This document shows, piece after piece, positions 36,324-63,193 of a stretch of DNA of 64,000 nucleotides. Source of the stretch: Nitrospira sp. (lineage in GTDB: Bacteria > Nitrospirota > Nitrospiria > Nitrospirales > Nitrospiraceae); assembly GCA_036984305.1 (NCBI GenBank), contig BQWY01000001.1:2253501-2317500 (forward strand), read 5' to 3'. The translations under genes were made by a program, and so were the position numbers. The number at the start of each line of letters is the position of its first letter. The stretch's first letter is position 1. Below the pieces are notes generated by a model. The model worked only from the letters and a program-made list of their open reading frames with translations, was not told the DNA's origin and ran no database searches.

Positions 36324-36360
36324 TCATACTTGGACTTCAACGCACCCGAGAGAGCCAGCG

Positions 36361-36519
36361 ATGAATCGAGCGCAACGTCCGAACCCCGTCACGGATGCCG
36401 GCGAGCATGGACATGCGGAGAGTCCATTACGGACGGATTATGCAGACCACCCGACGATGGCCGTAGGGCGGAGCAGGCGCTTACACGGTGCGACCGATAC
36501 CAAGGAAGGTCACGTATGA
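36361..36519 (+). CDS. Candidate 52-aa small protein coupled to wza
   Basis: An ATG at 36361 opens a 52-codon frame (MNRAQRPNPVTDAGEHGHAE at its start) whose stop TGA overlaps the ATG of the Wza-type gene as ATGA, the same four-base overlap used by many gene pairs in this locus. A weak GAGAG lies upstream. The peptide is hydrophilic, rich in His, Arg and Asp, with no known family. It may be a leader peptide that couples translation, or a chance frame. Confidence 0.35.
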   Translation: MNRAQRPNPVTDAGEHGHAESPLRTDYADHPTMAVGRSRRLHGATDTKEGHV

Positions 36520-37319: not shown

Positions 37320-37347
37320 CGTTTCAACACGGATGTTGAAACGCGTT
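37320..37347 (+). terminator. Hairpin between wza and wzc (possible attenuator)
   Basis: A perfect nine-pair stem, CGTTTCAAC (37320-37328) with GTTGAAACG (37335-37343), and a six-base loop. It begins one base after the wza stop and is followed by CGTTTTC. The short T run makes it a weak terminator or a processing site; it would lower expression of wzc and later genes relative to wza. The wzc ribosome binding site lies just downstream. Confidence 0.45.
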
Positions 37348-37364
37348 TTCGAGGAGCAGAGGAC

Positions 37365-39503
37365 ATGGCCCAATACGAACTTGACGTCCTGGATTATTGG
37401 CTGATCCTGAAGAAGCGCAGGTCCATGATCGTCTTTTCGGCGGGACTCGTCCTCGCCTTTACGTTCCTCTTCACGCAACTGATGACTCCCGAGCCCATGT
37501 TCGAAGCGGCCGCGCGCGTCAAGTACGAGCGTACCAACGCCATGGCGCAGCAATTCGTGGAAGGCGCCAATTTCGCCAATCCGGCCGAACTGAGCACCCA
37601 AACGGAAGTGATCAAGGGCTTTCAAGTCATGGAGCGGGTCGCACAGGATCTCGGCATCGTCGATGCCACCCCGACACCGGACGTGCGTGGCTCGGCCGAA
37701 TATCTCAATACCATCTACAATCTTGGGCAAAGTATCCAGACCACGCGAGAGCCCGAAACCAATATCATCCGCATTACCGCCCAGTCGGACAATCCCCTCC
37801 GAGCCCAGCGAATGGCCAACAGTGTCGCCACGGCGTACCGCGTCGAAAATATCGCCGCACGCAACCGGATCGTGACGGAATCCCGCCGGTTCGTCGAGGC
37901 TCAGCTGGCTGGGCTTGAAGCGAATCTCGAAGAAGCCGAGCATCGCCTGCGCGAATTCAAGGAGCGCGAAGGCCAGGTTTTCCTGGACGAGGAGGCGAAA
38001 ACCGCCTTGTCGATGTTTTCTCAACTGGAAGGGGAGTTGAACTCAGTGACTCGGCAGAAAGAAGACGCCTCGCGCCAAATCGACGCCGTGAGAAAGAAAG
38101 CGTCGACCCCGGCAGACGTCACAGGGCGCATCTTCACCGAGGACCATCAGGCCTTGCTGGCCAAGCTGAACGCACGCTTGATCGAACTGAAGCAGGAGTG
38201 GTCGACGCTCCTGCTCAACTACACGCCGAATCACCCGAAAGTGAAGGAGCTCGTCCGGAAGATCGACAACGTCAAGGGGGAGATGATCCAGGAACTCAAT
38301 TCCAAGGTGAAAACCCTCGAGGGGCGAGAGGCGGATCTGACGGTGCAGATCGATCGGTATCGCGCGCGATATTTGGCGTTTCCCAAAGCCGCCATCGAGC
38401 TGACCCGCCTCGAACGTGACGTGAAGATGAATGCCGATCTCTACTCCAGCCTGAAGATCAAGCATCAGGAATTGCTGATCAAGAGCGCGGAACAGATTGA
38501 AGAGGTGACCATCATCGCACCGGCCGTCAAACCGGACGCACCGACCAACACCCCGAACACTCCGATCAACCTCGCCGTGGGGTCGATTATGGGCGTGTTT
38601 CTCGGGATCGTCATGGCGTTCGCGCGCGAGTCGTTCGACACGTCCATCGGGACGATCGAAGGCGTCGAGGAATTTCTCAAGGCTCCGGTCTTGGGCGTGA
38701 TCCCGAAGTTCGACGACGACGAGCTTCAAGAGGCGGCGCGTACGGCGCTTCCGATGCTATCCGACAAGGACATGACGGACAGCGTTTCCAAATTGGTCAC
38801 GCTGTTGCAACCCAAGTCGCTCATTTCGGAGAGCTTTCGATCGCTCCGAACGAACCTTCAATTCGCCAGTATCGATCGGCGGGTCAAATCTCTCTTGTTT
38901 ACCAGCGCAGGCTTGGGCGAGGGCAAGAGCACGACGGTCATCAACCTCGCGATTACCCTGGCCCAAGAAGGTCAGCGTGTGCTCCTCGTGGACGCCGACT
39001 TGCGTCGACCGGTTATTCACCGGCGGCTCGGACTTCCATTGGGACCCGGCTTGCAGGATGCACTGCAGGGTTCCCGCACGTGGCAGGAGTTGATCCATCC
39101 CGCATCTCACTTTCTGAAGGGGAAGATCGGACACAATTCTCCCCTCGGTAGCCCGGGACTGGAAAACCTTCACGTCCTGACCAGCGGCGCCACCACGCAA
39201 CAAGCCGGGGAGTCGATGAGCCTGGCAAAGATGCGGCCTTTGATGAATGAAATGCAGTCGGCTTACGACATCGTCCTCTACGATACCCCCCCCATCTTGC
39301 CGGTGACGGACGCCGTGGCCATGAGTTCTCGGGTGGACGGAACGATCATCGTGTACCAGGTTGGGCGCATCGGCCGGAACGCGTTGAAACGGGCGAAATT
39401 CTTGCTGGCTCACGCTCAAGCCAATATCATGGGAGTGGTGCTCACGAACGTGAAGGCCGAGATTGCCCCCGAAGCGAGCTTCTATCGCTACGAGTATCGG
39501 TAA
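37365..39503 (+). CDS. Wzc/GumC-type polysaccharide copolymerase with tyrosine autokinase domain
   Basis: A 712-aa inner-membrane protein that controls chain length and export. An N-terminal Wzz domain with a membrane segment (about 25-42), a long periplasmic coiled-coil region (about 180-390), a GNVR-like stretch and a second membrane segment (about 405-425) precede a cytoplasmic BY-kinase domain: Walker A GLGEGKSTT (near 515), Walker A' LLVDADLRRP (near 540), Walker B LYDTPPI (near 635). The C-terminus has only three tyrosines (Y707, Y709, Y711) in a short cluster. A strong GGAG-rich site precedes the ATG. Confidence 0.93.
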   Translation: MAQYELDVLDYWLILKKRRSMIVFSAGLVLAFTFLFTQLMTPEPMFEAAARVKYERTNAMAQQFVEGANFANPAELSTQTEVIKGFQVMERVAQDLGIVDATPTPDVRGSAEYLNTIYNLGQSIQTTREPETNIIRITAQSDNPLRAQRMANSVATAYRVENIAARNRIVTESRRFVEAQLAGLEANLEEAEHRLREFKEREGQVFLDEEAKTALSMFSQLEGELNSVTRQKEDASRQIDAVRKKASTPADVTGRIFTEDHQALLAKLNARLIELKQEWSTLLLNYTPNHPKVKELVRKIDNVKGEMIQELNSKVKTLEGREADLTVQIDRYRARYLAFPKAAIELTRLERDVKMNADLYSSLKIKHQELLIKSAEQIEEVTIIAPAVKPDAPTNTPNTPINLAVGSIMGVFLGIVMAFARESFDTSIGTIEGVEEFLKAPVLGVIPKFDDDELQEAARTALPMLSDKDMTDSVSKLVTLLQPKSLISESFRSLRTNLQFASIDRRVKSLLFTSAGLGEGKSTTVINLAITLAQEGQRVLLVDADLRRPVIHRRLGLPLGPGLQDALQGSRTWQELIHPASHFLKGKIGHNSPLGSPGLENLHVLTSGATTQQAGESMSLAKMRPLMNEMQSAYDIVLYDTPPILPVTDAVAMSSRVDGTIIVYQVGRIGRNALKRAKFLLAHAQANIMGVVLTNVKAEIAPEASFYRYEYR

Positions 39504-39560
39504 TCCGCGACCACCCCCGTTTCGAAGTCAAGGCGCGGAGCGCATGATCCGCAGAGACGT

Positions 39561-41012
39561 ATGGTTACCCTCGAAGACAGTGCTCCACGCGCTCATCTCC
39601 TGCTGCCCCTGGCATTAACGGTCCCCGTCGCCGCCCTCGCCGCGCTGGCTCCGCCGACCATTGCTCTTGGGGCTTTGCTTGTCGTCATGCCGCTCTTGAT
39701 TTCGTTCTTGGCACCTACCGCAGGCCTGTATCTGTTGGTCTTCTCCATGCTGTTGGGCCCGGAATTCGTCGTAGGACATTTGGGCACGGACGTCACACGG
39801 AGCCGCGGCTTGACCCTTCGGCTTGACGACGTGTTGTTGGTCCTGGTTGGACTGGGCTGGCTCGGCCGGCTCGCGACCTCACGCCGCGCCCGAACCTTGG
39901 TGCGGACGCCGCTGAATCGGCCGATCATGTGGTATGTGACCGGATGCGTCCTCGCAACATTGCTCGGGGTCGCCGCCGGTCGCGTTCGTCCGACGACGGG
40001 ATTTTTCTTCCTGCTCAAGTACTACGAGTACTTTTTCATTTTCTTCATGACCGTGAACATCGTGACTCACGAAAAAGACATCCGCCATCTCGTCACGGCT
40101 TGTTTCGTGACGTGCGCGGTGGTCTCACTGTATGCCATTGCACAGATCCCCTCCGGCATGCGGGTATCCGCCCCGTTCGAAGGACATGAAGGGGAGCCGA
40201 ACACGTTGGGCGGGTACCTCGTGTTTCTGAGCGCGCTCGCGGCTGGTTTTCTGCTGACGCCCGGCGCCGCACCGCGGAAATGGCCCCTGTTGGCTCTCCT
40301 CGCGATCATTGGCGTCGCCCTTCAAGCCACGCTGTCGCGCGCATCGTTCCTCGCAGCCGCCGTCGTCCTGATCGGGATCTTGGTCGTCGTGCGTCGCCGC
40401 AATCCGGTGCTGGTGGTCGTGATTCTCCTCGGCATGATGGCCATCCCGCTGACGGCACCGCAGGCGGTCATGGATCGCGTGCTGTACACCTTCATGCAGC
40501 CGAAAGAGGACGGGCAAATCCAGGTTGGACACGTCCGAATCGACACGTCGACCTCCGAGCGATTTCGATCCTGGCAACAGTCGGTCGAGGTCTGGAAGAA
40601 ATCCCCGCTCTGGGGGCATGGGGTGACCGGTGGACCCTTCATGGATGCCATGTATCCGCGAGTCTTGACCGAGGCGGGTCTCATCGGCTTGAGCACGTTC
40701 GGATTGTTGATGATCGGCATTTGGAAAGTCGGGTATCGAGCCAGAGAGTCGCTGAGCCATCCCTACGGACGCGGTCTGGCATTGGGTTTCCTCCTCGGAT
40801 TTGTCGGCCTCCTTGTGCATGCCATCGGCTCGAACACGTTCATCATCGTACGGATCATGGAACCCTTCTGGCTCGTGACGGGCTTAATGGTCAGAAGCCT
40901 CATCCTGGAGGAGTCCCGACGCGCCACTCCGCCCGCCAGCACCGACGAGCCGCAGCAGTTCATGTCCTTTCACGAGATGCCTGGAGCGACGTTCGGGTAT
41001 CGCTCCCGATAG
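39561..41012 (+). CDS. Wzy-like O-antigen polymerase/ligase family membrane protein
   Basis: A 483-aa protein with about eleven hydrophobic segments and one large periplasmic loop (about residues 310-375, containing SERFRSWQQSVEVWKKSPLWGHGVTGG), the layout and motif of the O-antigen ligase/polymerase (Wzy_C) family. In a Wzx/Wzy locus its likely job is polymerising lipid-linked repeat units at the periplasmic face. Ligase activity cannot be excluded. It follows wzc by 57 bases. Confidence 0.85.
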   Translation: MVTLEDSAPRAHLLLPLALTVPVAALAALAPPTIALGALLVVMPLLISFLAPTAGLYLLVFSMLLGPEFVVGHLGTDVTRSRGLTLRLDDVLLVLVGLGWLGRLATSRRARTLVRTPLNRPIMWYVTGCVLATLLGVAAGRVRPTTGFFFLLKYYEYFFIFFMTVNIVTHEKDIRHLVTACFVTCAVVSLYAIAQIPSGMRVSAPFEGHEGEPNTLGGYLVFLSALAAGFLLTPGAAPRKWPLLALLAIIGVALQATLSRASFLAAAVVLIGILVVVRRRNPVLVVVILLGMMAIPLTAPQAVMDRVLYTFMQPKEDGQIQVGHVRIDTSTSERFRSWQQSVEVWKKSPLWGHGVTGGPFMDAMYPRVLTEAGLIGLSTFGLLMIGIWKVGYRARESLSHPYGRGLALGFLLGFVGLLVHAIGSNTFIIVRIMEPFWLVTGLMVRSLILEESRRATPPASTDEPQQFMSFHEMPGATFGYRSR

Positions 41013-41017
41013 GGCTC

Positions 41018-42544
41018 ATGGCTATTGCACCAATTCCACGCCTCACCGCGCGGCAAGGTCACGATCCTCGTAAAAGCGACCTCAGCCCTCCCCCGAACCT
41101 TCCCACACACGTGGTTCAAGGCGGAGTCCTGCTGGGGGGCCAGCGCCTCGTTGGACTGACCGTGTCCGGATTGGGCAGCATTTTTCTCGCCCGCTGGTTG
41201 ACGCCGGAGATTTTTGGAACGTACGCGATCCTCTGGTTCTGTATTGCGCTCGCGATCAACGTCTCGGAGATGGGCCTCACGGCCGCCTTGTTATTGCAGC
41301 CCGAAAGCCGCCTTCGCAAGGAATTACCGTCGGTCGCCACGGCTCAACTTCTTGTCATGGTGGCCCTGGCGGCTGCGATGGCCGCGACCACGCCTGTCCT
41401 CATCGACTGGTTAGGACTTGGACCGGAAGCCGCCTGGCCGTTGCGTGCGATGGCCGTGCTGCTCCCACTCTCCGCGTTGCGGTTGGTGCCGGCAGTGAAA
41501 CTCGAGCGCCGGCTCTATTACATGCCGCTTACCATCGCAGACACCATCGACACCATCGTGTTCTATAGTGTTGCGGTTGCAGCGGCCTATGCTGGAGCCG
41601 GACTCTGGAGTTTCGTCATCGGCATTCTGGTCGGGCGGGTGACGAGCATTACCAGCCTCTGGGTGCGTGAACCCTGGTGGCCGATTCTGCCTATTCCGTG
41701 GGGCGAGTGGCGATGCACGATCCGCCGAGGTTGGGCCTTTCAATCCACCGCCATGCTGGTACAAGCCCGAGAGGCCGTGGCCCCGATCCTCGTCCGTCAC
41801 CTCGCCGGGGTCCCTGCCGTCGGCCTGCTCAATCTCGCCTCAGCCCTTGCGCTTCAAACCGTACAAATGACGAATGTCGCTACTCGAGTCCTGTTTCCCA
41901 CCTTCGTACGCCTGCGAGAGGATGACGCGGCCTTTGGAGCAGCCTGCGAGCGCGCCCTGAATCGCGTCGCGGTCATCATCGTCCCGGCGACCGCGTTCCT
42001 CTGTGCGACAGCCGACCCGTTTGTTCGTCTCGTCTACGGTACAGGTTGGACCGCGGCGATTCCATCGGTTCGACTCTTTTGCCTGTCTGCCTTGGCAGGT
42101 GGTCTCACCATGGTGGCCATCCATGCCTTGAATGCTCTTGGGCATGCGTCCGTCGTCTTCCGCCTCAATCTGTGGTGGACGATCCAACTCTGGGTGCTCA
42201 CGCTGATTCTGGTCGTCCCGTTGGGATATGTCGGCTTTGCCGTTGCCCATGTGATTCAAGGGTTGGCCAGCACGCTGGCTTTTCATCATCTTCGGCGACT
42301 GCGACCCGTTCGTGTGCTCGCGCAGCTGCAAGCCCCCTGTACAGCCGCAGCGCTCGTCGCGGCCGTGTTGTATGTTCTGACGCCCTGGCTGAGGAATCTG
42401 GTCTTGTTGGCCGGAGCCGTATCCGTCGCCGTCGCCGTCTACCTCTGCCTGCTCACACTGTTGAGCGGCTCCACGTGGCGCGCCGAAATCTGGCGCGAAT
42501 GGAGGCACGTCGTGGACGCTCGTTGGAGCCATGGCCTGTCATGA
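41018..42544 (+). CDS. Wzx-type oligosaccharide flippase
   Basis: A 508-aa membrane protein with 12-14 hydrophobic segments of the polysaccharide-transport MOP superfamily. The start region VVQGGVLLGGQRLVGLTVSGLGSIFLARWLTPEIFG (given in parts) is the typical first helix pair, and RVLFPTFVRLREDDAAF and FPLYGTGWT-like GTGWTAAIPSVRLFCLSAL segments recur in this family. It would move the lipid-linked unit across the membrane. The ATG at 41018 is six bases after the polymerase stop; its stop overlaps the next start (ATGA). Confidence 0.87.
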   Translation: MAIAPIPRLTARQGHDPRKSDLSPPPNLPTHVVQGGVLLGGQRLVGLTVSGLGSIFLARWLTPEIFGTYAILWFCIALAINVSEMGLTAALLLQPESRLRKELPSVATAQLLVMVALAAAMAATTPVLIDWLGLGPEAAWPLRAMAVLLPLSALRLVPAVKLERRLYYMPLTIADTIDTIVFYSVAVAAAYAGAGLWSFVIGILVGRVTSITSLWVREPWWPILPIPWGEWRCTIRRGWAFQSTAMLVQAREAVAPILVRHLAGVPAVGLLNLASALALQTVQMTNVATRVLFPTFVRLREDDAAFGAACERALNRVAVIIVPATAFLCATADPFVRLVYGTGWTAAIPSVRLFCLSALAGGLTMVAIHALNALGHASVVFRLNLWWTIQLWVLTLILVVPLGYVGFAVAHVIQGLASTLAFHHLRRLRPVRVLAQLQAPCTAAALVAAVLYVLTPWLRNLVLLAGAVSVAVAVYLCLLTLLSGSTWRAEIWREWRHVVDARWSHGLS

Positions 42545-50125: not shown

Positions 50126-52027
50126 ATGTGCGGCATCGCGGGCATACTGGGACCGTCTACACCCGACATGATGGGGCGAATGCTCAATGCCCTCGTGCAC
50201 CGAGGACCGGACGACCACGGCCACTTTAGGGCACCGGGCGTCGCCATCGGCGCACGACGGCTCAAGGTCATTGACCCCGGCGGCGGGCATCAACCCCTCT
50301 CGAACGAAAACGGCACGGTCTGGGTGGCGCTCAACGGGGAAATCTACAATTACCGATCTCTACGGGAAGACCTGATTCACAAAGGGCACCGCTTTAGAAC
50401 CGAATGCGACACCGAGGTTCTGGCGCATCTCTACGAAGAAGAGGGTCCCGACGGAATCACCCGTCTGCGCGGGATGTTCGCCTACATGCTGTGGGACCAA
50501 CGCGCTCAACGCCTCGTGGTCGCCCGAGATCGTCTCGGCATCAAACCGCTCTATTATGCGGTCCACCACCAGACTGAAGCCGGCAAAGCGGACCTCATCG
50601 CGGCATCGGAACTGCCGGCGCTCGTCACCGCTTTGCGAGAGCCACGGTTGCGACGCGATGCGCTCGTCGATTACCTCACATGGCTCTACGTGCCGGCACC
50701 GGATACCATCTACGAGGGCGTGCACCAACTCTTGCCGGGACATCAACTCATCTGTGACCAGGGCGCCGTCCAAGTCCGGCGGTACGCCTCCATCGAACCG
50801 GCCTATCCTGGGTTTTCATGGTCGTCCATCGAAGAAGCGGCCGAACACTTCTACGGATTGTTTCGGGATGCCGTCCGGGCACATCTCGCCAGCGACGTCC
50901 CGCTGGGGCTCTTTCTCTCCGGGGGACTTGACTCGAGCGCCATCCTCGCGATGATGCGCGAAGCAACGCCGGGGCCGATCAAGACCTTCTCCGTCGGATA
51001 CGGACACGAAGCGGACCGCTCGTATAACGAACTAGCGGTCGCGCACGACGTCGCCCGCCGTTTTGAGACGGACCATACGGAAGCAGTGCTTCGACCGGAC
51101 ATCACCGCGCTCTTACCCAAGGTCGTACGCGCGATGGGCGAGCCCTTCGCCGATTCCTCGTCGATTCCAACGTATCTGGTCTCCGAGATGGCCAGGCGAC
51201 GGGTCACCGTCGCCCTGTCGGGAGTCGGCGGCGACGAATTGTTCGGAGGGTACCCTCGCCATCTGGGTATGCGCCTGGCCGCGCGGTATCAATGGCTGCC
51301 GATCGCCGTCCGTGGGGCCTTCTCCTCCCTGGGCTCTGCGATGTTGCCGGAAGGCGTCGACGGCCGTGACAATCTAGGCCGGCTGAAGCGCTTCCTACGC
51401 TGGGGCACCGAGCCGCTGGCGGATCAGTACGGTGCCTGGACCACGCATCTTCCCCAAGAGTGGGGATGGCGGGCGCTTCATGACGATCTCGCCCTTAGCT
51501 CCGAGACCCAGGCTGTGGCTCGCGCCCGACACTATTTCGAGGCCTGGCATTCCCCCGATCCGGCGGATCGAGCCATGGGCGTCGACCTCCAGACGTACCT
51601 TCCCGACGACCTCCTGCGGCTTGGCGACCGTATGAGCATGGCGCATTCGCTCGAACTGCGGGTGCCGTTTTGCGACCATCACCTTCTGGCCTTCGCCTTG
51701 AGTCTGCCGGCATCACTTCGATTCCGCGGCTCACGGTTGAAGGGTTTCCTTCGCCATGCGTTTCGACACACGCTCCCACCTTCGGTCGTGGATGGCCCAA
51801 AGCTCGGATTCCGCGTACCCCTTGCACGCTGGTTCAAAGAGGATCTGGCCGGTATGGTCGGAGACCTGCTCGGAGAGCAGGCCGTGCGCCAGCGCGGTAT
51901 CCTCCGTCCCGCCTATGTACGATGGCTGGTCGAGGAGCACCGTTCGGGGCGGCGGAACCTGACGGACCAGCTGTATGCCGCGCTCGTGCTGGAGCTGTGG
52001 ATGCGCCAACAGGCAGGAACCATATGA
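50126..52027 (+). CDS. AsnB-type glutamine amidotransferase (asparagine synthase family)
   Basis: A 633-aa protein with an N-terminal glutaminase domain (nucleophile C2 in MCGIAGILG, then HRGPDDHG and LNGEIYNY) and a C-terminal synthetase domain with the ATP loop LSGGLDSSAIL (about 263-273) and VALSGVGGDELFGGYPRH. In polysaccharide loci such enzymes often amidate uronic acids rather than make asparagine; that is inference here. Its stop overlaps the next glycosyltransferase (ATGA). Confidence 0.92.
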   Translation: MCGIAGILGPSTPDMMGRMLNALVHRGPDDHGHFRAPGVAIGARRLKVIDPGGGHQPLSNENGTVWVALNGEIYNYRSLREDLIHKGHRFRTECDTEVLAHLYEEEGPDGITRLRGMFAYMLWDQRAQRLVVARDRLGIKPLYYAVHHQTEAGKADLIAASELPALVTALREPRLRRDALVDYLTWLYVPAPDTIYEGVHQLLPGHQLICDQGAVQVRRYASIEPAYPGFSWSSIEEAAEHFYGLFRDAVRAHLASDVPLGLFLSGGLDSSAILAMMREATPGPIKTFSVGYGHEADRSYNELAVAHDVARRFETDHTEAVLRPDITALLPKVVRAMGEPFADSSSIPTYLVSEMARRRVTVALSGVGGDELFGGYPRHLGMRLAARYQWLPIAVRGAFSSLGSAMLPEGVDGRDNLGRLKRFLRWGTEPLADQYGAWTTHLPQEWGWRALHDDLALSSETQAVARARHYFEAWHSPDPADRAMGVDLQTYLPDDLLRLGDRMSMAHSLELRVPFCDHHLLAFALSLPASLRFRGSRLKGFLRHAFRHTLPPSVVDGPKLGFRVPLARWFKEDLAGMVGDLLGEQAVRQRGILRPAYVRWLVEEHRSGRRNLTDQLYAALVLELWMRQQAGTI

Positions 52028-53253
52028 ATCTCGTTTTTTTAGCGGATGTTTCCGCCGCGCACGTCATCGGTGGTGCCGAACGGATGCTGAGGGAACAGGC
52101 CCTTGGGTTGTCACGATTGGGACACCGCGTTCAATTGGTCACCCGGGCCCCCATCTCGGACTCGCGCCCGCACGTCCGCATCGATGGCGTCGATGAGTGG
52201 CGCTTCCTTGTGGAGCGCGACCATGAAGTATCCTTTCTCCTGTCGACGATCCAGCGCTCCACCGAAATCTTCGATCGTATAACCGCACGTCGCCGTCCTG
52301 ATGTCGTCCTGATCCACCAGGCCACGGCCGGGATCGGCCCCATGCTCATGCGGCGAAACGTACCGCGGTCCTGGATGTACATGTGTCATTCCTTGGCGCA
52401 TGAGGAGTATGCGACCCGCTCCAACGAGGTCGTCTCCGGGGTCGATATCCTTCGGCGCTCCGCAAACACGCAAGGGCGATATTGGACCGAGCACTACGTC
52501 ATCTCGCGGTGTTCCCGGGTCATCGTGCTGAGCGAATTCATGCGCGACCGCGTGTTGCGCTTCCATCGTATTCCCAATCGACGCGTGTGGCAGATTCCCG
52601 GGGCAGCCGACCCGGAACGTTTCCAACCGGCTGCGGACAGGCCGCGCGTGCGCCGGGAGCTGGGACTTCCGCAGGACCGCACGATACTCTTCACCGTCCG
52701 GAATCTCGTGCCCAGGATGGGATTGGATCTCTTGATTGAAGCAATGGTACGGCTCGGCGAGGATGGACACGACGTCATGCTGGTGATCGGCGGGGAAGGA
52801 CCGATGCGATCGGCACTGGCGGAGCAGATTCACCGACACGGACTGACGGGGCGGGTGCACTTGACCGGTTTCGTTCCCGAAGAGCAGCTGAGCCGCTATT
52901 ACCAGGCGGCCGATCTCGTCGTGGTTCCGACTGCGCAGTTGGAGGGATTTGGGCTGGTCACCGTGGAAGCCCTCGCGTGCGGCACACCCGTGCTCGGCAC
53001 ACCGATCGGCGCACTGCCCGAAATACTCCGTCGTATCGATCCCGCCCTCGTAACCGACAGCGCTGACACCGAGTCGTTGGCCGACGGCATTCGGCGGCTG
53101 CTCCGCCGCTGTGCCGAGCAACCGGGCGAGCAGGAACGGCTTGCGCGCAAGGGGCGCCAGTTGATCGAACGTGAGCTGAACTGGTCGCAACACATCGTCA
53201 ACCTTGAAAGCGTACTGATGGGCGACCAACGTCAACAACGGCGAGCGGCGTGA
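52024..53253 (+). CDS. Family 4 glycosyltransferase
   Basis: A 409-aa GT4: FLADVSAAHVIGGAERMLRE at the N-terminus, a donor-binding region starting LFTVRNLVPRMGLDLLIEAM, and the EX7E core LEGFGLVTVEALACGTPVLG. The ATG at 52024 overlaps the asnB stop by four bases; the longer open frame upstream lies antisense-like within asnB and is not used. Confidence 0.9.
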   Translation: MNLVFLADVSAAHVIGGAERMLREQALGLSRLGHRVQLVTRAPISDSRPHVRIDGVDEWRFLVERDHEVSFLLSTIQRSTEIFDRITARRRPDVVLIHQATAGIGPMLMRRNVPRSWMYMCHSLAHEEYATRSNEVVSGVDILRRSANTQGRYWTEHYVISRCSRVIVLSEFMRDRVLRFHRIPNRRVWQIPGAADPERFQPAADRPRVRRELGLPQDRTILFTVRNLVPRMGLDLLIEAMVRLGEDGHDVMLVIGGEGPMRSALAEQIHRHGLTGRVHLTGFVPEEQLSRYYQAADLVVVPTAQLEGFGLVTVEALACGTPVLGTPIGALPEILRRIDPALVTDSADTESLADGIRRLLRRCAEQPGEQERLARKGRQLIERELNWSQHIVNLESVLMGDQRQQRRAA

Positions 53254-53419: not shown

Positions 53420-54646
53420 ATGAAAGCCGATAGCACGATGTCGCCGATCAAAGTCATCCACGTCATCACCAGACTCGACCAGGGCGGATCGGCGCGCAAC
53501 ACAATGCTGACCGTGTTAGGACACGATCGCGCGCACTACACCCCCATCGTCATCGCTGGAAAGCCAGGTCGATGGACGGCCCAAGGCGGAGAGGAAGCCA
53601 CTCATCACAACGCACACCGTCTGCTATCGGCCGGAGTCCGCTGTCTGCTCTTGGACACCTTGGTTCGTCACGTCAGTCCACTGGATGACCTTCGTGCACT
53701 ATGGAGAATCTGGAACGTGTTCTTGGAGGAACGGCCTGCCGTCGTTCATACGCACACGTCCAAAGCCGGCGCCATCGGACGCGTGGCGGCGTGGTTGGCC
53801 GGGGTCCCGACGATCATCCACACGCCGCACGGTCACGTGTTTTACGGTCATTTCGGCCGTGGGCTATCCTGGGTCTTTTTGCAATTGGAGCGGCTGCTGG
53901 CGTTGATTACGACTCATGCCATTGCCTTGACCGACGCCGAACGCCGCGACTACCTTGATCGGAACGTCGGTACTCCCTCTCTCTGGAGCGTCATCCCGAG
54001 CGGCATCGACCGAGAACCCTTCCAAGCAACCGCTACGACTCCCAAGCGGCGCCCCGTCTTTTTTGGATGTCCGGAGGATGCCGTGGTCGTCGGATCCGTC
54101 GGATGGCTGACCGAGATTAAGGGACATCGCACCCTCATCGAAGCCATCGCCGAAGTCGCCCCGGCCCATCCGCGCGTGCATCTCGTACTGGTCGGCACCG
54201 GTCACCTCCACGACGACTATGTGCAATTGGCGGACTGGTTGGGCATTCGTGATCGCGTGCACCTGATCGGACATCAAGAGGACGTGCCGGCCTGTCTCGC
54301 CGGCATGGACATTTTTGTGCTGCCGTCGCTCAACGAAGGAATGGGGCGGGCGCTGGTGGAAGCCATGGCCGCGTGCTTGCCGGTCATCGCAACGAGAGTC
54401 GGCGGCGTTCCCGGTGTGCTGGAGGATCGGCGAACCGGCTTGCTCGTGCCTCCTGCCGATTCCGGCGCCTTGGCCCGCGCCCTCGTGACACACTTGCAGA
54501 ACCCCGCGCGCGCTCGGGACATGGGGCTGGCTGCCGGTCTCAGTATCGGCACGCACTACGACGTCGCCTGGATGGTGCCGGCCATCGAATCGATCTACGA
54601 GGCTGTCCGGCCCCGGCCGGACATACGAAAGGCACCGGCGTGGTAA
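53420..54646 (+). CDS. Family 4 glycosyltransferase
   Basis: A 408-aa GT4: IKVIHVITRLDQGGSARNTM, then VHTHTSKAGAIGRVAAWLAG and HTPHGHVFYGHFG, which are typical of the WbpH/PelF-like GT4 group, and the EX7E core SLNEGMGRALVEAMAACLP. Two ATGs (53420, 53438) are possible starts. The stop overlaps the start of the next gene. Confidence 0.9.
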   Translation: MKADSTMSPIKVIHVITRLDQGGSARNTMLTVLGHDRAHYTPIVIAGKPGRWTAQGGEEATHHNAHRLLSAGVRCLLLDTLVRHVSPLDDLRALWRIWNVFLEERPAVVHTHTSKAGAIGRVAAWLAGVPTIIHTPHGHVFYGHFGRGLSWVFLQLERLLALITTHAIALTDAERRDYLDRNVGTPSLWSVIPSGIDREPFQATATTPKRRPVFFGCPEDAVVVGSVGWLTEIKGHRTLIEAIAEVAPAHPRVHLVLVGTGHLHDDYVQLADWLGIRDRVHLIGHQEDVPACLAGMDIFVLPSLNEGMGRALVEAMAACLPVIATRVGGVPGVLEDRRTGLLVPPADSGALARALVTHLQNPARARDMGLAAGLSIGTHYDVAWMVPAIESIYEAVRPRPDIRKAPAW

Positions 54647-56157
54647 GAGCACGACGCACGACTACGATCCTACACGGCGTCATTGCCTTGCTCCTGCTCG
54701 GCGCAGAGGCCCGCGCCAGCCAGCACGAACCGCTCCATCCGCTTCGGGTCGCCGTCCACGTGCACAGTCTGGCCAGCACCGGATCCATGTCCGTCGAGGA
54801 CCTCGCCCATCGGGCCGAGCAGTTGGGCCTGGACGCGATCTTGCTGAGCGAGAACTTCACGCTCCGGTATGAGTACGGATTGCCGCCGCTACGACAGTTG
54901 CTGCGCGTCGCGGTGTCCTATCCGTCGCTGCTGGACTACGGTATCGAGCGCTATTTGCGCGAGGTACGCGACACCCAAGCGCGGCATCCCAATCTGCTTT
55001 TGATTCCCGGGATCGAAGCCGCTCCGTTTTCTTACTGGACCGGGTCGCTCCTCACGGGGGATCTCACTCTGCACGACACGCAAAAAAACCTTTTGGTCTT
55101 CGGCCTGTCGGAACCCGCGCAATACCGCGGGCTGCCGGCGCAGGGTAATCCTTGGTCCTACCAGCTCGATGGAGTGAGTCTCGTGTCCGTCACGGTTCCC
55201 GTGCTGTGCCTCCTCGGAGGCATCGGGGTCGTTCTACGTCGGCGTCGGGCCATCCGGGACGGCCACTCGCTGACGGTCGGGCCCGGCTGGGTCGCCCTCG
55301 CAACCGCCCTCTTTCTCTTTGGGCTAAGCGGGGCCTGGGCCGCCTGGCCGCCTGGCCACACCGCCTTTTCCGCCTACGACGGCCAGGAGGGGTATGCCCC
55401 CTATCAGCATTTTATCGATCAGGCACGGAAGTCGGGCGGTCTCACCTTCTGGTCCATGACCGAGGCACGCGACTTCACCACACGGGACTTCGGCCCGCTC
55501 GGAACCGTCACGGTCCGGACCGACCCGCACCCCGAGGCGCTCATCCTGACGAAGAATCTTTCTGGGTTCGGCGGTCTCTATCAGGAAGCGCATCACGTCG
55601 TGGACCCTGGCGGGTTGTGGGATCAACTGATCGAGCAGTATGCTCGAGGGCACCGACCCGACCCACCCGTGATGTTGGGAGAAATCGCCTTTCACAGTCT
55701 CGCTCAAGCGAAGAAGGACCTCGATCAGGTGCTGACGGTGGTCTCAGTCGAGCGCCGGTCCGTCCCGTCGCTGATGGAATCCATCAGGACCGGCCGGCTC
55801 TATGCCGTGGAGCGGCAAAAGCCTGGCTATTCGTTGCGTCTCGATACGTTTGCCCTGCAATGCGCGTCGGTCGGCTCGGTCGCGATGATGGGTGACGTGG
55901 TCGACCCCGCGCAGTGTGCACAGGCGACCGTTCGGATTCGTGTCTCCGCGACAGACGGCGGGGAGCATCCCATCACGGTCAGGGTGGTACGAGCCAGCCA
56001 GGTGGTGTCGACGACGGCAGGACACACTCCATTAACCGCGGACGTCGTCGACACCGTACGACCCGATGAGCCCACGGCCTATCGAGTGCTTGTCACGGGA
56101 AGCGGGGAGCTGCTGAGTAATCCCATATACCTGCGGCCGACGGAGACTCGCCCATGA
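54640..56157 (+). CDS. Membrane protein with degenerate PHP-like domain
   Basis: About 505 aa from a GTG at 54640, overlapping the preceding gene. A signal sequence (LHGVIALLLLGAEARAS) leads into a PHP-like region: VHVHSLASTGSMSVEDLAHRAEQLGLDAI in pieces, with H40 and H42, but the usual TDH is S70-E71-N72. NLLLIPGIEA corresponds to the PHP PGxE block. Two membrane segments (about 181-199 and 218-235) interrupt it; the expected late histidine region reads SGGLTFWSMTEARDF. A beta-rich C-terminal domain follows. So this is probably an exported, membrane-anchored PHP homologue that has lost some metal ligands. Function unknown. The start codon is uncertain. Confidence 0.7.
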   Translation: MVRARRTTTILHGVIALLLLGAEARASQHEPLHPLRVAVHVHSLASTGSMSVEDLAHRAEQLGLDAILLSENFTLRYEYGLPPLRQLLRVAVSYPSLLDYGIERYLREVRDTQARHPNLLLIPGIEAAPFSYWTGSLLTGDLTLHDTQKNLLVFGLSEPAQYRGLPAQGNPWSYQLDGVSLVSVTVPVLCLLGGIGVVLRRRRAIRDGHSLTVGPGWVALATALFLFGLSGAWAAWPPGHTAFSAYDGQEGYAPYQHFIDQARKSGGLTFWSMTEARDFTTRDFGPLGTVTVRTDPHPEALILTKNLSGFGGLYQEAHHVVDPGGLWDQLIEQYARGHRPDPPVMLGEIAFHSLAQAKKDLDQVLTVVSVERRSVPSLMESIRTGRLYAVERQKPGYSLRLDTFALQCASVGSVAMMGDVVDPAQCAQATVRIRVSATDGGEHPITVRVVRASQVVSTTAGHTPLTADVVDTVRPDEPTAYRVLVTGSGELLSNPIYLRPTETRP

Positions 56158-56867
56158 AAGCGACCATCCATCAACCGCAGTTCCTTCCTTGGCTCGGCTA
56201 TCTCGACAAAATCGCCCAGTCGGATCTCTTCGTCGTGCTGGATAACGTGCAGTTCAAAAAGAACGAATGGCAAAACCGCAACCGCATTCGGACGGCTGAA
56301 CGCTGGCAATGGATCACCGTACCGGTCTTACACGATTTCGGACAATCGATAGGGGACGTCCGTATCAACAACGACGTGCACTGGCGGCAACAACACCTGC
56401 GTGCCATTGAGATTCACTATGCACGGGCTCCCTTCCGGCAGATCGGTCTCGACGCCCTCACGAGTGTGTACGCTCAGCCGTGGGCACGATTGGCAGACCT
56501 CAATCTCGCGGTCCTCCGGTGGCTCCTGTCTGTGTTCGGCATCGAGACTCCGATCCGTCTGGCTTCGGAGATGGTGTTGCGCACTCAACCGACCGATCGC
56601 TTGATCGATATCTGCAGGCTCCTGCACGCCGACACCTATCTGGCCGGGGCCGGTGCCGACGCGTATATGGACCGTCCGCGCTTCGAAGCCTCGGGGATCC
56701 GATTGGAGACGCAGATGTTTCATCATCCGGTCTATCGTCAATGCTACGACCCGTTTCTGCCCGGTATGTCGGCCATCGATCTGATGATGACCGAAGGCCC
56801 GGACGCATTTCATCGGCTACGCGCACAGTCCGCCGAGACCGGGCTCCTGGAAGGGAGGTCGGCATGA
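56154..56867 (+). CDS. WbqC family protein
   Basis: A 237-aa protein whose start, MKATIHQPQFLPWLGYLDKI, followed by VLDNVQFKKNEWQNRNRIRT, is diagnostic of the WbqC family found in O-antigen and related sugar loci. The catalytic role of the family is not established to my knowledge. It overlaps both neighbours by four bases (ATGA), which places it in a tight cassette with the PIG-L and DegT genes and suggests a joint role in making or modifying an amino sugar. Confidence 0.9.
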   Translation: MKATIHQPQFLPWLGYLDKIAQSDLFVVLDNVQFKKNEWQNRNRIRTAERWQWITVPVLHDFGQSIGDVRINNDVHWRQQHLRAIEIHYARAPFRQIGLDALTSVYAQPWARLADLNLAVLRWLLSVFGIETPIRLASEMVLRTQPTDRLIDICRLLHADTYLAGAGADAYMDRPRFEASGIRLETQMFHHPVYRQCYDPFLPGMSAIDLMMTEGPDAFHRLRAQSAETGLLEGRSA

Positions 56868-57508
56868 AGGACGCGAAGGCTCAGGCCATGCGCCTGCTGG
56901 CCATTGGGGCTCACCCGGACGACATCGAAGCCGGGTGCGGAGGCACCCTGATCAAGTACGCGCAGGACGGTCATCGGATCTTTTTGATGGTCATGACGGA
57001 GGGCGAGCGGGGAGCCACCCGACACACCAGGCATCGAGAGCAGTTGCGGGCTGCGAGGACACTCCTCGCCGAGCGGATCTTCTGGGGAGGATATCCCGAC
57101 ACCCAGGTACCGTCCAACCCCGGGTTGATCAAACGGATCGAGTCGGTCGTGCGCGAGGTACAGCCGGATTTCATCTTCGTCCACTACCATGACGACACCC
57201 ACCAGGATCATCGCCATATCGCCACCTGTACCATCACCGCGACACGCTATACCAAGAACGTCCTGTTCTACGAAGGTCCGACCACGCAAAACTTCTCCCC
57301 GACGGTCTTTGTCGACATCGACGAGGTGCTGGAGGACAAGATCGCTTCGCTCCGTGCGCATGCCTCGCAGGTCGCCAAAACCCACATCGAAGGACTGTCG
57401 ATCGTGGACATCATTCGTTCGGCCGCACACTTTCGGGGAATTCAGGGACGAGTCCGCAACGCGGAGGGATTTCTTCCCCTGCGCTTGTTTATCAACGTGT
57501 CACGATGA
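56864..57508 (+). CDS. PIG-L/LmbE family N-acetyl deacetylase
   Basis: A 214-aa zinc-dependent deacetylase-like protein. The metal motif is AIGAHPDDIEAGCGG (H17, D19-D20), with the third ligand region HYHDDTHQDHRHI. Relatives remove acetyl groups from N-acetylated sugars. The start ATG at 56864 has an AAGGGAGG site and overlaps the wbqC-like stop. Its stop overlaps the DegT gene. Confidence 0.9.
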   Translation: MKDAKAQAMRLLAIGAHPDDIEAGCGGTLIKYAQDGHRIFLMVMTEGERGATRHTRHREQLRAARTLLAERIFWGGYPDTQVPSNPGLIKRIESVVREVQPDFIFVHYHDDTHQDHRHIATCTITATRYTKNVLFYEGPTTQNFSPTVFVDIDEVLEDKIASLRAHASQVAKTHIEGLSIVDIIRSAAHFRGIQGRVRNAEGFLPLRLFINVSR

Positions 57509-58596
57509 CCGCAGAACCTCTGATACCCCACTCGCGACCGTCGCTCGGCCAGGCCGAAGAGGATGCCGTTGTGTCCGTGGTCCGTGCCGGGCGACTCGTG
57601 CAGGGGCAGGTCGTGGCGCAGTTCGAGCGGGCGGTTGCCGACTGGTTCGGGCGAAGGGCCGGCGTCGCCGTCAGCTCAGGCACCGTTGCGCTTGAACTTG
57701 CCATGCGCGCAATGGACATCCGTCCCGGAGACGAGGTCATCATGCCGAGCTACGTATGCGCGGCGCCCTGGCAAGCCTGTACTCGTGTCGGCGCCACTCC
57801 GGTCATCGCGGACATCGATCGAACCACCTATAACCTGGATCCTGAGTCCGCGCGTCGCCTACAAACGACTCGAACCAAAGCGATCGTCGTGCCTCATCTC
57901 TTCGGCCTCTCAGCCGAGACGACCCAACTCGCGCAACTCGGCATCCCGTTGATCGAGGACTGCGCTCAAACATTGGACGCGGAAGCAGGAGGGCGAAAGG
58001 TCGGCACCACCGGACTGGTCACGATCTGTTCATTTTATGCCACCAAACCCTTATGTGCAGGGGAAGGTGGCATGGTCCTCTCCGACGACGTCCTGCTTCT
58101 GGAGCGCGTTCGACGCCTACGCGAATACGACGAGGCTTTGGATCTGACCGCCGGAGCCACGAACGCGAAAATGACCGAGCTTCATGCTGCGATCGGCTTG
58201 GCGCAGCTCTCGAAACTGCCGGCGTTCATGAGCAGACGACGGGCGATTGCGGCACGGTACCGTAAGGCCTGGGCATCGCTCCCCTTGACCCTGCCAGCAT
58301 CACCGCCGGAGCGAACACACGATTACTTTCGCTTCGTCGTGGAGGCACAGGCGGACAGGTCCGGCCCCGATGCCGGAACCGCGTGGCTTGAGACCTGCAC
58401 CCAGCTGGGGCTCCACTGCCGCCGGCCGATTTTTCAACCGTTGCATCGCTACCTCGGCGACGCCGAGTGCCCGCACAGCGAAGCAGCGGCACGAGCGGCG
58501 ATCTCGATACCCCTCTATCCGGCCTTGACCGACAAGGAGGTCTCACGCGTGATTCAACTGGTGCAGGAGACGTGTCATGAAGTCGCTCAGTTCTGA
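57505..58596 (+). CDS. DegT/DnrJ/EryC1 family PLP aminotransferase
   Basis: A 363-aa sugar aminotransferase. The PLP lysine is K181 in SFYATKPLCAGEGGMV; AVSSGTVALELAMRA, PSYVCAAPWQACTRVGATPV and EDCAQTLDAEAG are typical blocks. It would aminate a keto-sugar nucleotide for the polysaccharide, or, given the PIG-L neighbour, act in an amino-sugar branch. It overlaps the WecA-type gene by 20 bases. Confidence 0.92.
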   Translation: MTAEPLIPHSRPSLGQAEEDAVVSVVRAGRLVQGQVVAQFERAVADWFGRRAGVAVSSGTVALELAMRAMDIRPGDEVIMPSYVCAAPWQACTRVGATPVIADIDRTTYNLDPESARRLQTTRTKAIVVPHLFGLSAETTQLAQLGIPLIEDCAQTLDAEAGGRKVGTTGLVTICSFYATKPLCAGEGGMVLSDDVLLLERVRRLREYDEALDLTAGATNAKMTELHAAIGLAQLSKLPAFMSRRRAIAARYRKAWASLPLTLPASPPERTHDYFRFVVEAQADRSGPDAGTAWLETCTQLGLHCRRPIFQPLHRYLGDAECPHSEAAARAAISIPLYPALTDKEVSRVIQLVQETCHEVAQF

Positions 58597-59851
58597 TCCG
58601 GCCCCGATAGAGGGGTACCTGGAAGCCGGTGCGGCTCCGCTGAAACGACTGGCGTGGACGAGCGCGCTCGGCACCCTGCTCTTGACCGGTTTGCTGATTC
58701 CGCACGTGCGGGACGTGTTCGTGGCAGGCGGACAGCGCTGGGCCTATATTCTCGCGATTGCGTGCGTCTCCAGTTGGACGCTCACGCCATGGGTCAGCGA
58801 ACTTGGACATCGATGGGGACTCGTCGACGTTCCGAACGCGCGCAAGATCCACCAGACGGTAACGCCTCGGGTCGGAGGACTCGCCATCTATCCGGCCTTC
58901 GTCCTCGCCATTCTCATGAACTCGATCGTCACGGGATGGATGGTCGCCATGATGGTTGCCGCAACGGCCCTCTTCGCCATCGGAGTGATGGACGATGCCC
59001 GGGAAGTCTCGGCGACGACCAAGTTGGTGGTTCACATCGCCGCTGCATCTCTAGTCATCGCATCCGGCAAGGTGCTGACGTTGTTCCCGGATACCCCACT
59101 TGGAGAAACACTCAACGTATTGCTGACGCTGACGTGGATCGTCGGCATCACCAGCGCGTTTAATTTCTTCGATGGAATGGACGGGCTGGCGACAGGCCTC
59201 GCGATCCTCATTGCGGGGTTCATGGGCATCGTCGCGTTCGACATGGATCAAGCGGGTTTGGGGTGGGTGACGGTGGCGTTGATCGGCGCCTGCCTCGGCT
59301 TTCTTCCGTACAACCTTCGTTTCACCAAACCGGCACGGGTGTTTCTTGGCGACAGCGGATCGACGTTTCTTGGCTTCACCCTTGCCTGTCTCGCGGTGAA
59401 GGGGAATTGGGCTGACCAGAATCCGATCGTGTCGTTCAGCAACCCGCTCCTCATTTTCGGCGTGTTGATCTACGACATGATCCACATCACGATCGCCCGA
59501 GTCGCCACTGGAAAAGTGACGTCGATTCACACCTGGCTCGAGTATTGCGGCAAAGATCATCTCCATCATCGGCTCGAGAACGCGCTTGGCAGTCGGGTTG
59601 CCAGCGTGTTCATGATATTCGGATTGACGACCTGCCTTGGTCTTGCGGCCATCGTGCTGAGAAAAGCCGGCACCGTCGAAGCGCTGCTCCTGCTCGCCCA
59701 AGCCGCCATCATGGTGGCGATCCTCACCGTGCTCGAACAACGGGGACGAAGCAGGAAGGAACGAGAACACGTAGCCAATTTCCTTCCGGATCGACCGGCG
59801 CGTCACCCCAGCCGCCGTCGTGGCGCCAGCGTCGGTCCCTGGCGGCGGTAG
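58577..59851 (+). CDS. WecA/TagO-type undecaprenyl-phosphate sugar-1-phosphate transferase
   Basis: A 424-aa membrane protein of the MraY/WecA family with about ten to eleven membrane segments. Motifs: [35 protein letters not shown] (aspartate pair), [12 protein letters not shown] and [12 protein letters not shown], plus a C-terminal DHLHHRLE histidine motif. It would attach GlcNAc- or similar sugar-1-phosphate to undecaprenyl phosphate as the first step of the repeat unit. It ends the polysaccharide locus. Confidence 0.92.
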
Positions 59852-61467: not shown

Positions 61468-61690
61468 TCACCGCTCAACTCTCACGTGACATGTTGGCGC
61501 TGTGTCCGCATTTGCCGCTCCACCGGCACAACGGCCGAGGTTGGACTGGGTCGGTGCCCAAACGGACGGAGTTGAACCATCAGGGCTCCCCATCCCAAAT
61601 GGGGGCTTACGGGGTCGTCTCGAGCCGTCATGAATCATGTGAGCGAGTGGCACATTGCTCACCGTGGCCGTCGCTGACTCGTCTGCAGTG

Positions 61691-63193
61691 ATGCCGGCAC
61701 GTCGGCCATCTTCCTCCTTGCCGCCTCTCACGGCCTGCTTGGCTCCCCCTCTTCTGCTGGTGCTGGCGCTGATCATGGCGGGATGCCCACGCTCGAGCCC
61801 CCCGATCACCCCATCGGTGACTCCACCGTCGCGGACTGCCACCGTCGAAGCGGAGTTACGGGCCCTTGCCGAAGCGCGCGCGCATTTCGAGGCCGGCCGT
61901 TTTCAAACGGCTTCCCGGCTGCTGCGTCATTTCCTCGAATTACATGCCCATACAGCCAACGCGGTAGAGGCACGCTGGATCCTGGGGCGATCGTACGAGG
62001 AGTTGGGGGAATGGCATGCCGCACTCGCGCAATACCGCATCATTGTCGCCGCCGCGGCGCATCCGCCCGGCCTTCCGCCCGCGCTCAACACGCAGGTGCG
62101 GGACCGAATTTCCGTGCTCACCCGCGTGCTGGGGCGCGCCACGTCGGCCACATCCGGATTCGTGGCGATTGCACTGGACCCCGCCCACCTGCCGGATCCC
62201 GCCCGTTGGGAAGAATGGTTGACACCCTTGCTGGCTGAGGGCATTACCACCCTGGTCCTCGATGTGGCACCGGTTAGCCGACAGACCGCGTCCGGCGTGT
62301 ATTTCCGCACCACCTGGGCACGCCTGGACCGCGATCTCTTTACCGAACTCATCCCGTTGGCGCACGACTTGGGCCTGACGGTCTTTGCCTCCCTCGACTT
62401 GACGCAAATGCCCTGGCTCGATCCGACCTTGGGTTGGACCACCTACGTCTTGGACGAGCGCACGCGCCAACTCACGCCGACGCGTTCGTTCGACGTGCTC
62501 CATCCCGCCGTGCAGGAATATCTGACCGGCTTTCTCTCCGACCTGGCTCGGACGCAAGTGGACGGTTTGATCGCACTCTTCGGGAGCCGCAACGGGCCAC
62601 GCTACCATATCAGTGGTAAGGGGCTGGCGCAGTTCGCGCAAAGTGTCGGTGCCGACCTCGATCCCGTACAGGTCTTGAGTTATGCCCACACCATACCGGT
62701 ACACGGCCACAGCATCACGCCCACCGCACCATCGTCGGATCCAATAGCAGGGTACTTCTGGCGATGGGCCGGTTGGCAAGCTCGTGAGCAGTTGAACGTG
62801 CTCGACCGCTTTCGGGCGGCGATGCGCCGCCAGCACACCGGTTTGCACGTGGCCATCGCGTTTCACGACGTGTCGCTGACCAACAGCCCCATCGGTCTTC
62901 TCGAACATGGGGAAGATCTTCTCGAAGCCGCCAGTCGAGGGTTCGGGGTGGCACTCCCTCTCGCCGCTCTGTCCCCACAAGCAACCACCGGACCCGGTTC
63001 GCCGTCAGGCTCGGCCTTCGCCGATCAGGTCACGCGCACGTTGGACTACGTCGGATCGGCGGAACGGCTCTGGCTTCTGGAACCGGTTTCGCATCTCGAT
63101 CGTGCCTCGCTGTCGCGCCTGTTGAATGCTCCCCAAGTGCAAATCCTCAGATCGCGCGGCATCAACCTTGTGATCACGGCACCCACGCCGTAG
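61691..63193 (+). CDS. Lipoprotein with tetratricopeptide-like and PgaB-like domains
   Basis: About 500 aa from the ATG at 61691 (a TTG at 61655 is also in frame). A lipobox (ALIMAGC, C32) indicates a lipoprotein. Residues about 60-125 form a TPR-like helical region (ARAHFEAGRFQTASRLLRHF, ILGRSYEELGEWHAALAQYR). From about 145 on, the sequence resembles the C-terminal glycosidase-like domain of PgaB: GVYFRTTWARLDRDLFTELIP, DVLHPAVQEYLTGFLSDLAR and QVDGLIALF. It may hydrolyse or bind a glycan, perhaps the product of the nearby locus; this is inference. Confidence 0.72.
   Translation: MPARRPSSSLPPLTACLAPPLLLVLALIMAGCPRSSPPITPSVTPPSRTATVEAELRALAEARAHFEAGRFQTASRLLRHFLELHAHTANAVEARWILGRSYEELGEWHAALAQYRIIVAAAAHPPGLPPALNTQVRDRISVLTRVLGRATSATSGFVAIALDPAHLPDPARWEEWLTPLLAEGITTLVLDVAPVSRQTASGVYFRTTWARLDRDLFTELIPLAHDLGLTVFASLDLTQMPWLDPTLGWTTYVLDERTRQLTPTRSFDVLHPAVQEYLTGFLSDLARTQVDGLIALFGSRNGPRYHISGKGLAQFAQSVGADLDPVQVLSYAHTIPVHGHSITPTAPSSDPIAGYFWRWAGWQAREQLNVLDRFRAAMRRQHTGLHVAIAFHDVSLTNSPIGLLEHGEDLLEAASRGFGVALPLAALSPQATTGPGSPSGSAFADQVTRTLDYVGSAERLWLLEPVSHLDRASLSRLLNAPQVQILRSRGINLVITAPTP

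Follow-up and report, generated by a model that had tools for sequence, protein, structure and literature searches.

The DNA examined here, called the window throughout, is a stretch of 64,000 nucleotides from Nitrospira sp. (assembly GCA_036984305.1, contig BQWY01000001.1, positions 2,253,501 to 2,317,500). The gene of interest lies at 54640–56157 and encodes a split, membrane-anchored protein with a PHP fold, in which five of the nine usual metal ligands are replaced; this gene, its features and the cassette genes located below are on the forward strand. It has a GTG start at 54640 and a stop at 56157 (505 codons); 7 bases are shared with the upstream GT4 glycosyltransferase gene, and 4 with wbqC downstream. 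Residue numbers are those of P0001, with residue 1 at 54643. The domain order is export signal, first half of the PHP domain, two hydrophobic helices, second half of the PHP domain, and a C-terminal β-sandwich. The putative N-terminal export signal (54640–54720) is recognised from the sequence, a model helix at residues 2–21 and, by eye, an ARA-S cleavage-like site; the median hydropathy of this region is 2.55 over 121 relatives. The predicted transmembrane hairpin (55171–55344), seen in the hydropathy and as model helices 177–205 and 215–234, has a positively charged loop that is arginine-rich in the window protein (LRRRRAIRDG). The β-sandwich (residues 394–501; 55822–56145) is of the CehA/McbA type according to an NCBIfam profile, the model and structure matches. 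An initial annotation, made from the sequence alone, had described a signal and two membrane segments that split the domain, and this description agrees with the present one.

The AlphaFold2 model, for which 16 family sequences served as input, has a mean predicted local distance difference test score (pLDDT) of 85.6 and a predicted template modelling score (pTM) of 0.83. Its top Foldseek matches in the PDB are 3e38 (E 3.3e-9) and 2anu. The best structural match in VIA-align is 2anu (TM0559), with a Z score of 19.4 and a root-mean-square deviation of 2.7 over 213 aligned residues; 3e38 is matched over two domains with Z 17.3, and all matches listed with Z of at least 8 are PHP-containing structures. 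The PHP-like domain proposed by the initial annotation is thus borne out by the predicted structure, which has the PHP barrel fold. As the PHP match covers residues 31–393, the hairpin (177–234) is an insertion within the PHP domain.

Profile searches give a less clear-cut picture. The general PHP model (PF02811) is the only Pfam match of the window protein, and its score over residues 38–126 (23.4 bits) lies below the curated cut-off of 26.4; the same model matches 16/16 members of the family alignment A1 at E≤1. A homologue with all its ligands intact reaches only 21.1 bits, likewise under the cut-off, and a low score alone is therefore no evidence of decay; the PF02811 cut-off is a poor test for a split PHP domain. 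The NCBIfam model CehA_McbA (NF038032) scores 48.1 bits against a cut-off of 80, so that its family threshold is not reached; the best stretch is C-terminal, residues 361–497 on profile positions 187–314 (E 1e-12). Profile, model and the 3e38 match together place a CehA/McbA C-terminal sandwich after the PHP domain. A model of one intact homologue (L178) has a pLDDT of 87.1, hairpin helices at 189–209 and 230–246, and Z 20.4 to 2anu.

In the canonical PHP site, nine ligand positions follow the pattern H H D/H H E H C/H D/N H (Table 1 of PMC3666897; papers cited by PMC accession are drawn on here in excerpt). Five acidobacterial homologues (L176–L180) fit this pattern, reading H H D H E H H D H, whereas the window protein reads H39 H41 T46 N71 E125 N149 M272 A349 H351. 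Four of the nine ligands are therefore present: the two histidines of H39-V-H41 (positions 1 and 2; 54757–54765), E125 of PGIE (position 5; 55015–55017) and H351 (position 9). The five replacements are T46 for Asp at position 3 (54778–54780); N71 for His at position 4, where S69-E70-N71 (54847–54855) stands in place of the TDH of intact homologues; N149 for His at position 6 (55087–55089); M272 for the His of AHP at position 7, within W270-S271-M272 (55450–55458); and A349 for the catalytic Asp at position 8, within A349-F350-H351 (55687–55695). The full set of nine ligands of PHP metal-dependent phosphoesterases, and with it the position-8 Asp that supports hydrolysis, is accordingly missing from this protein. 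The initial annotation had rightly noted the HxH start, the PGxE motif, SEN for TDH and W-S-M for a late histidine; its list passed over the losses at T46, N149 and A349 and the retained H351. It had also raised the case of true ligands at shifted positions. The motif blocks TDHLL, RHLLVLG, VWAHPEAR and AELDEH of the nine-ligand homologues align ungapped with SENFT, KNLLVFG, FWSMTEAR and GEIAFH of the window protein; therefore, the ligands are not merely shifted. E347 was considered as a replacement ligand and rejected, since it is also found in the intact homologues.

Judged from the alignments, the altered metal site is a conserved family trait, not decay, because the replaced positions N71 and N149 are nearly invariant Asn among distinct relatives. 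Of 159 aligned homologues, 118 show HH[TS]NEN[MLFY][AGV]H, which goes beyond chance; the 159 rows overlap between collections, and collapsing at 95% identity leaves 135 distinct ones. Among 104 distinct altered rows, N71 is found in 102, N149 in 103, H41 in 103 and E125 in 102, and D277, W270 and S271 in all 104; this set was chosen by E347, H351 and A/G/V349, and these columns are fixed by construction. Position 8 is A, G or V in 126/126 rows of a set selected otherwise, namely by N/D149, W270 and S271, which are in turn conserved by construction. Position 272 can be any of M, F, L or Y, and therefore only some of the lost positions are fixed. Across 16 full-length proteins, including that of the window, H39, H41, N71, E125, N149, W270, S271, E347 and H351 are invariant. 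The substitutions are thus conserved, a point on which the initial annotation had asked for a profile comparison, and decay in a single genome can be rejected with the altered site conserved over several phyla. Rather than a lone oddity, the window protein belongs to a family that is fixed in one gene cassette and of which intact versions exist.

A search for related loci with a single sequence found no relative. Among 61 related genomes, 20 hold a match to the PHP gene. Wider scanning yielded 70 loci; these come from Nitrospira and its relatives and from Rokubacteria/Methylomirabilota, plus a single record each for Latescibacterota and Acidobacteriaceae. The pattern scan behind these 70 loci required LTxHNxQ[KR]N or WSxxEARD and so favours those motifs; the genome-search sets were not selected in this way. 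In the latter, each set being the phylum of the locus taken as search centre, strong matches (E<1e-50) were found in 47/395 genomes of the window's phylum (50 at 1e-5), 48/95 of the Rokubacteria phylum (64 at 1e-3), 15/297 of the Acidobacteriaceae phylum (104 at 1e-3) and 21/64 of the Latescibacterota phylum. The weak matches in the Acidobacteriaceae phylum are short stretches typical of other PHP proteins. Of the 70 loci, 67 were extracted, with L093, L095 and L097 left out as partial; the alignments exclude L064 and L075, whose match frames are broken by internal stops, and the duplicate L057. L183–L197 are weak matches to other PHP proteins and are not counted as family; some of them, together with L131 and L133, served as outgroup. 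L076 and L139, recorded as Latescibacterota, carry the altered ligand pattern, unlike other relatives from this phylum, and a binning error is possible.

Proteins of the same architecture carry nine, eight, seven, six or four of the usual ligands. All nine are present in 5/159 rows, the acidobacterial L176–L180, which share the hairpin and the neighbouring genes with the altered proteins; these five confirm the assignment of the ligand positions and point to an ancestor with an intact site. HHTDEHHDH, in which only the position-3 and position-4 ligands are missing, is found in 8/159 rows (8/135 distinct), and partly reduced sites are therefore kept in the family; HHNSEHYDH, here called the C type, occurs in 5/159 rows. 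In L128 and L129, TDH, AHP, the His at position 6 and the Asp at position 8 are still present, and the ligands missing are the HxH motif's second His and the final His. These two genes (L128 6927–8417; L129 5641–7092) come from other Nitrospirota families and lie in the same cassette, with a loss complementary to that of the window protein. L239 and L240, hairpin relatives from the phylum of L076, read HSTAERANQ at the nine positions, so that nearly all ligands are gone, more than in any other complete row.

Trees were computed on chosen subsets with outgroups included: 57 rows with the ligand columns in, 65 rows with them removed, and 34 rows for an approximately unbiased (AU) test under a simpler model. 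In the 65-row tree, the hairpin proteins form one clade (support 100) against the hairpin-free canonical PHP proteins. The outgroup proteins read HHDHE-H/Y-HDH, which suggests, rather than proves, an ancestor with an intact nine-ligand site.

Two hydrophobic segments are found in the insert in 124/124 rows (17-residue sliding average, fixed alignment positions, threshold 1.0), the averaging length and threshold having been picked after a stricter first scan had been seen, which gave at least two segments in 62/124 rows, one in 53 and none in 9. The median hydropathy of the two segments is 1.95 and 2.11, compared with a median best value of 1.01 beyond residue 240, and the net charge of the loop is at least +3 in 102/124 rows. 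An export signal combined with a positive-inside loop predicts that both halves of the PHP domain face the periplasm, with the hairpin in the inner membrane.

The surroundings of the PHP gene are a polysaccharide locus, as the initial annotation had stated, and the gene sits there in a cassette. An AsnB-like amidotransferase gene (50126–52027) is followed by two GT4 glycosyltransferase genes, a (51865–53253; start uncertain) and b, directly upstream of the PHP gene (53420–54646). Directly downstream of the PHP gene is that for a WbqC-family protein (56154–56867), followed by those for a PIG-L family de-N-acetylase (56864–57508), a DegT/DnrJ/EryC1 sugar aminotransferase (57505–58596) and a WecA/MraY-type polyprenyl-phosphate sugar-phosphate transferase (58577–59851). 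WecA-type and GT4 enzymes build an undecaprenyl-linked saccharide in the cytoplasm, and the PIG-L, DegT and AsnB families point to amino-sugar or amide modification.

Nearly all of the 67 loci keep the order (AsnB)-GT4-GT4-PHP-WbqC-PIG-L-DegT-WecA to the extent that their contigs cover it, and MtnA comes after the cassette in Nitrospira. The cassette is spread over Nitrospirota, Methylomirabilota and Acidobacteriota, mostly with AsnB and the second GT4; the five intact homologues have GT4-PHP-WbqC-PIG-L-DegT-WecA, with AsnB farther downstream (L198–L202). Counted over rows with enough flank, WbqC is next downstream in 114/119 altered, 5/5 intact, 15/21 other and 0/4 C-type rows, and GT4 is next upstream in 118/122 altered and 5/5 intact rows. 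In two of the five altered rows that lack WbqC by this counting rule (L063, L140), a WbqC match lies close by. The C type adjoins a WecA-like match in four of five loci examined (L204, L205, L207 and L210; not L206). WbqC was found in 20/20 PHP-positive and 2/41 PHP-negative genomes (G032, G043; Fisher p 3.7e-14, relatedness not corrected), and the literature search on WbqC found no described activity. One of these PHP-negative genomes (G032, locus L134) has a WbqC-AsnB pair with DegT nearby and no PHP gene, a different use of WbqC. At L075 (Nitrospirae RIFCSPLOWO2_02_FULL_62_14), and also at L022, L026 and L027, the PHP gene appears to be broken by frame breaks or stops with the cassette kept; this may be assembly error.

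Taken together, these features would make the protein an inner-membrane-anchored, periplasm-facing representative of the CehA/McbA-like branch of the PHP fold and a fixed member of an exopolysaccharide cassette. Its lineage seems to have replaced five ligands, among them the water-activating position-8 Asp, and to have fixed Asn at two of the lost positions. In Mycobacterium tuberculosis DnaE1, water is activated by the position-8 Asp, and the D226N variant retains its metals but no exonuclease activity (PMC5636811, in excerpt); a Geobacillus kaustophilus PolC with Asn at position 8 is also inactive (PMC3666897, likewise). With Ala at position 8, and positions 3, 4, 6 and 7 lost as well, ordinary PHP hydrolysis is therefore unlikely, and standard three-metal phosphoester hydrolysis is most likely not run. 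The PHP protein is the member of the eight-gene group that is predicted to be exported; its likely target is therefore a flipped or growing glycan. The reading preferred here, which seems probable though by no means secure, is that of a periplasm-facing membrane protein that holds or guides polysaccharide, either undecaprenyl-linked or nascent, on the periplasmic side without standard three-metal PHP hydrolysis. Its pocket may be metal-free or carry one metal, as H-x-H, the Glu and the last His would leave room for a single ion.

Several points weigh against this reading. The intact ancestor is a deduction from outgroup patterns, and the basis of the topology is hydropathy, charge and the model. 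In the ligand-free tree the altered proteins are not one clade, as L076 and the pair L170/L181 are placed close to the intact and C-type proteins; the 57-row tree with ligand columns unites them (support 97), and with 34 rows a single clade is not rejected by the AU test (p 0.479). Near-invariant H39, H41, E125 and H351, together with D277, E347, W270 and S271, would also fit a working enzyme of changed chemistry. In such a metalloenzyme, H39, H41 and E125, two histidines and one carboxylate, would together with H351 hold one metal for hydrolysis or group transfer on the glycan or its lipid carrier, a doubtful but quite conceivable alternative. It draws on the counts among distinct altered rows for H41 (103/104), E125 (102/104) and H351 (104/104, though part of the selection), on the invariant W270, S271 and D277, and on the partly reduced HHTDEHHDH sites; it is opposed by the Ala, Gly or Val in place of the position-8 Asp and by the lost positions, where no new acidic or His residue appears and for which E347 is not compensatory. 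An unlikely, more specific proposal is that a three-metal PHP hydrolase was rebuilt into a one-metal (His-x-His plus Glu) enzyme or transferase acting on a periplasmic lipid-linked glycan, sister lineages in the same slot having kept nine or complementary ligands.

Five of nine ligands are also replaced in the E. coli Pol III PHP domain, which is metal-free and stabilises its enzyme (excerpt of PMC3666897), and by analogy the window protein might be a purely structural pseudoenzyme whose fold only scaffolds a glycosyltransferase or an export complex. This is improbable: according to the excerpts, lost positions in the polymerases drift, often to Arg, and DnaE3 shows no conservation (PMC3919608, PMC3666897), whereas two replaced positions here are nearly fixed Asn, and the retained ligands and polar residues near them belong to the best-conserved columns. 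That the protein is an ordinary secreted CehA/McbA metallohydrolase with misaligned ligands is hardly credible and, as far as sequence allows, refuted. The C-terminal match to CehA_McbA (E 1e-12) would speak for it, yet the score of 48.1 is below the cut-off of 80, and T, N, N, M and A fall at ligand positions in the ungapped alignment with nine-ligand homologues. As for the initial annotation, its observation is confirmed and was understated, and its interpretation is partly supported: a pseudoenzyme or a changed metal site remains the right pair of options, whereas the glycan-binding part has no specific footing, the sandwich reaching Z 6–7 to many unrelated folds. A specific carbohydrate-binding module was considered for this domain and is not supported by these matches to many unrelated β-sandwiches. 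The corresponding sandwich of the intact homologue gives Z 8–10, with matches that include Wzt but also SoxYZ and Ig domains.

Comparison with known systems sets the protein apart in several respects. Like the secreted CehA/McbA-type PHP metallohydrolases (NF038032; for example BVU_3505, 3e38), it has a PHP domain followed by a C-terminal β-sandwich; it differs in its in-domain membrane hairpin, five replaced ligands, sub-cut-off score and polysaccharide cassette. TM0559 (2anu), a predicted phosphoesterase of the PHP family, is shorter (224 residues), lacks hairpin and C-terminal domain, and keeps TDH. The E. coli Pol III PHP domain (PMC3666897, in excerpt) likewise keeps its fold and has intact relatives, but is a polymerase domain, has lost other positions and has not fixed them. 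In PolC an exonuclease is inserted into the PHP domain, and in DnaE3 ligand positions are not conserved (PMC3919608, in excerpt).

The initial annotation had also taken PHP proteins to be normally cytoplasmic and had called an exported, membrane-anchored, degenerate one in a polysaccharide locus unusual, but secreted PHP proteins are not rare. Sb-PDE of Sphingobium TCM1 is a secreted PHP phosphodiesterase whose signal peptide N-terminal sequencing has confirmed, but it is an active enzyme, and the excerpt of its description mentions no membrane hairpin (PMC5460133); the CehA-like L098–L105 have export-like N-termini by eye. A PHP domain in a UbiA-linked neighbourhood (PMC12419801, in excerpt) was considered and set aside as another system.

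CpsB, CapC, YwqE and Wzb are PHP tyrosine phosphatases of Gram-positive capsule loci, cytoplasmic and with an active metal site. The window protein shares with them a PHP fold in a polysaccharide locus; unlike them, it is predicted to face the periplasm, having a predicted export signal and hairpin, and lacks that metal site through the lost ligands. Degenerate PHP domains in polymerases and secreted PHP phosphodiesterases are already known. No description of a protein of the present kind was found in the literature searched, most subscription journals and bioRxiv preprints being outside its reach; within it, the membrane hairpin, the cassette, and the occurrence of intact and rebuilt forms together in that cassette are new. 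As intact and four-ligand forms share the same neighbours, the function of a PHP domain after the dismantling of its metal centre becomes testable. The gene is also a candidate periplasmic component for the exopolysaccharide of Nitrospira, Rokubacteria and Acidobacteriota, which are common inhabitants of soil and water.

A link to the XrtA/PEP-CTERM exosortase system was considered and rejected. The only PF09721 match of the genome lies outside the window (G000:C1:1973154), and exosortase and PHP gene show no association over 61 genomes (5/20 versus 14/41, p 0.56). Some cassette genes resemble XrtA-associated models, under their cut-offs, as do several genes at 36330–42544 of the window. The latter region, with Wza-like, Wzc-like kinase, Wzy/O-antigen ligase-like and, by eye, flippase-like genes, forms the section of this polysaccharide locus that deals with polymerisation and export. 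Shortly past the cassette, at 61655–63193, lies a gene for an exported-looking protein with a region reminiscent, by eye, of PgaB-type glycoside hydrolase-like domains.

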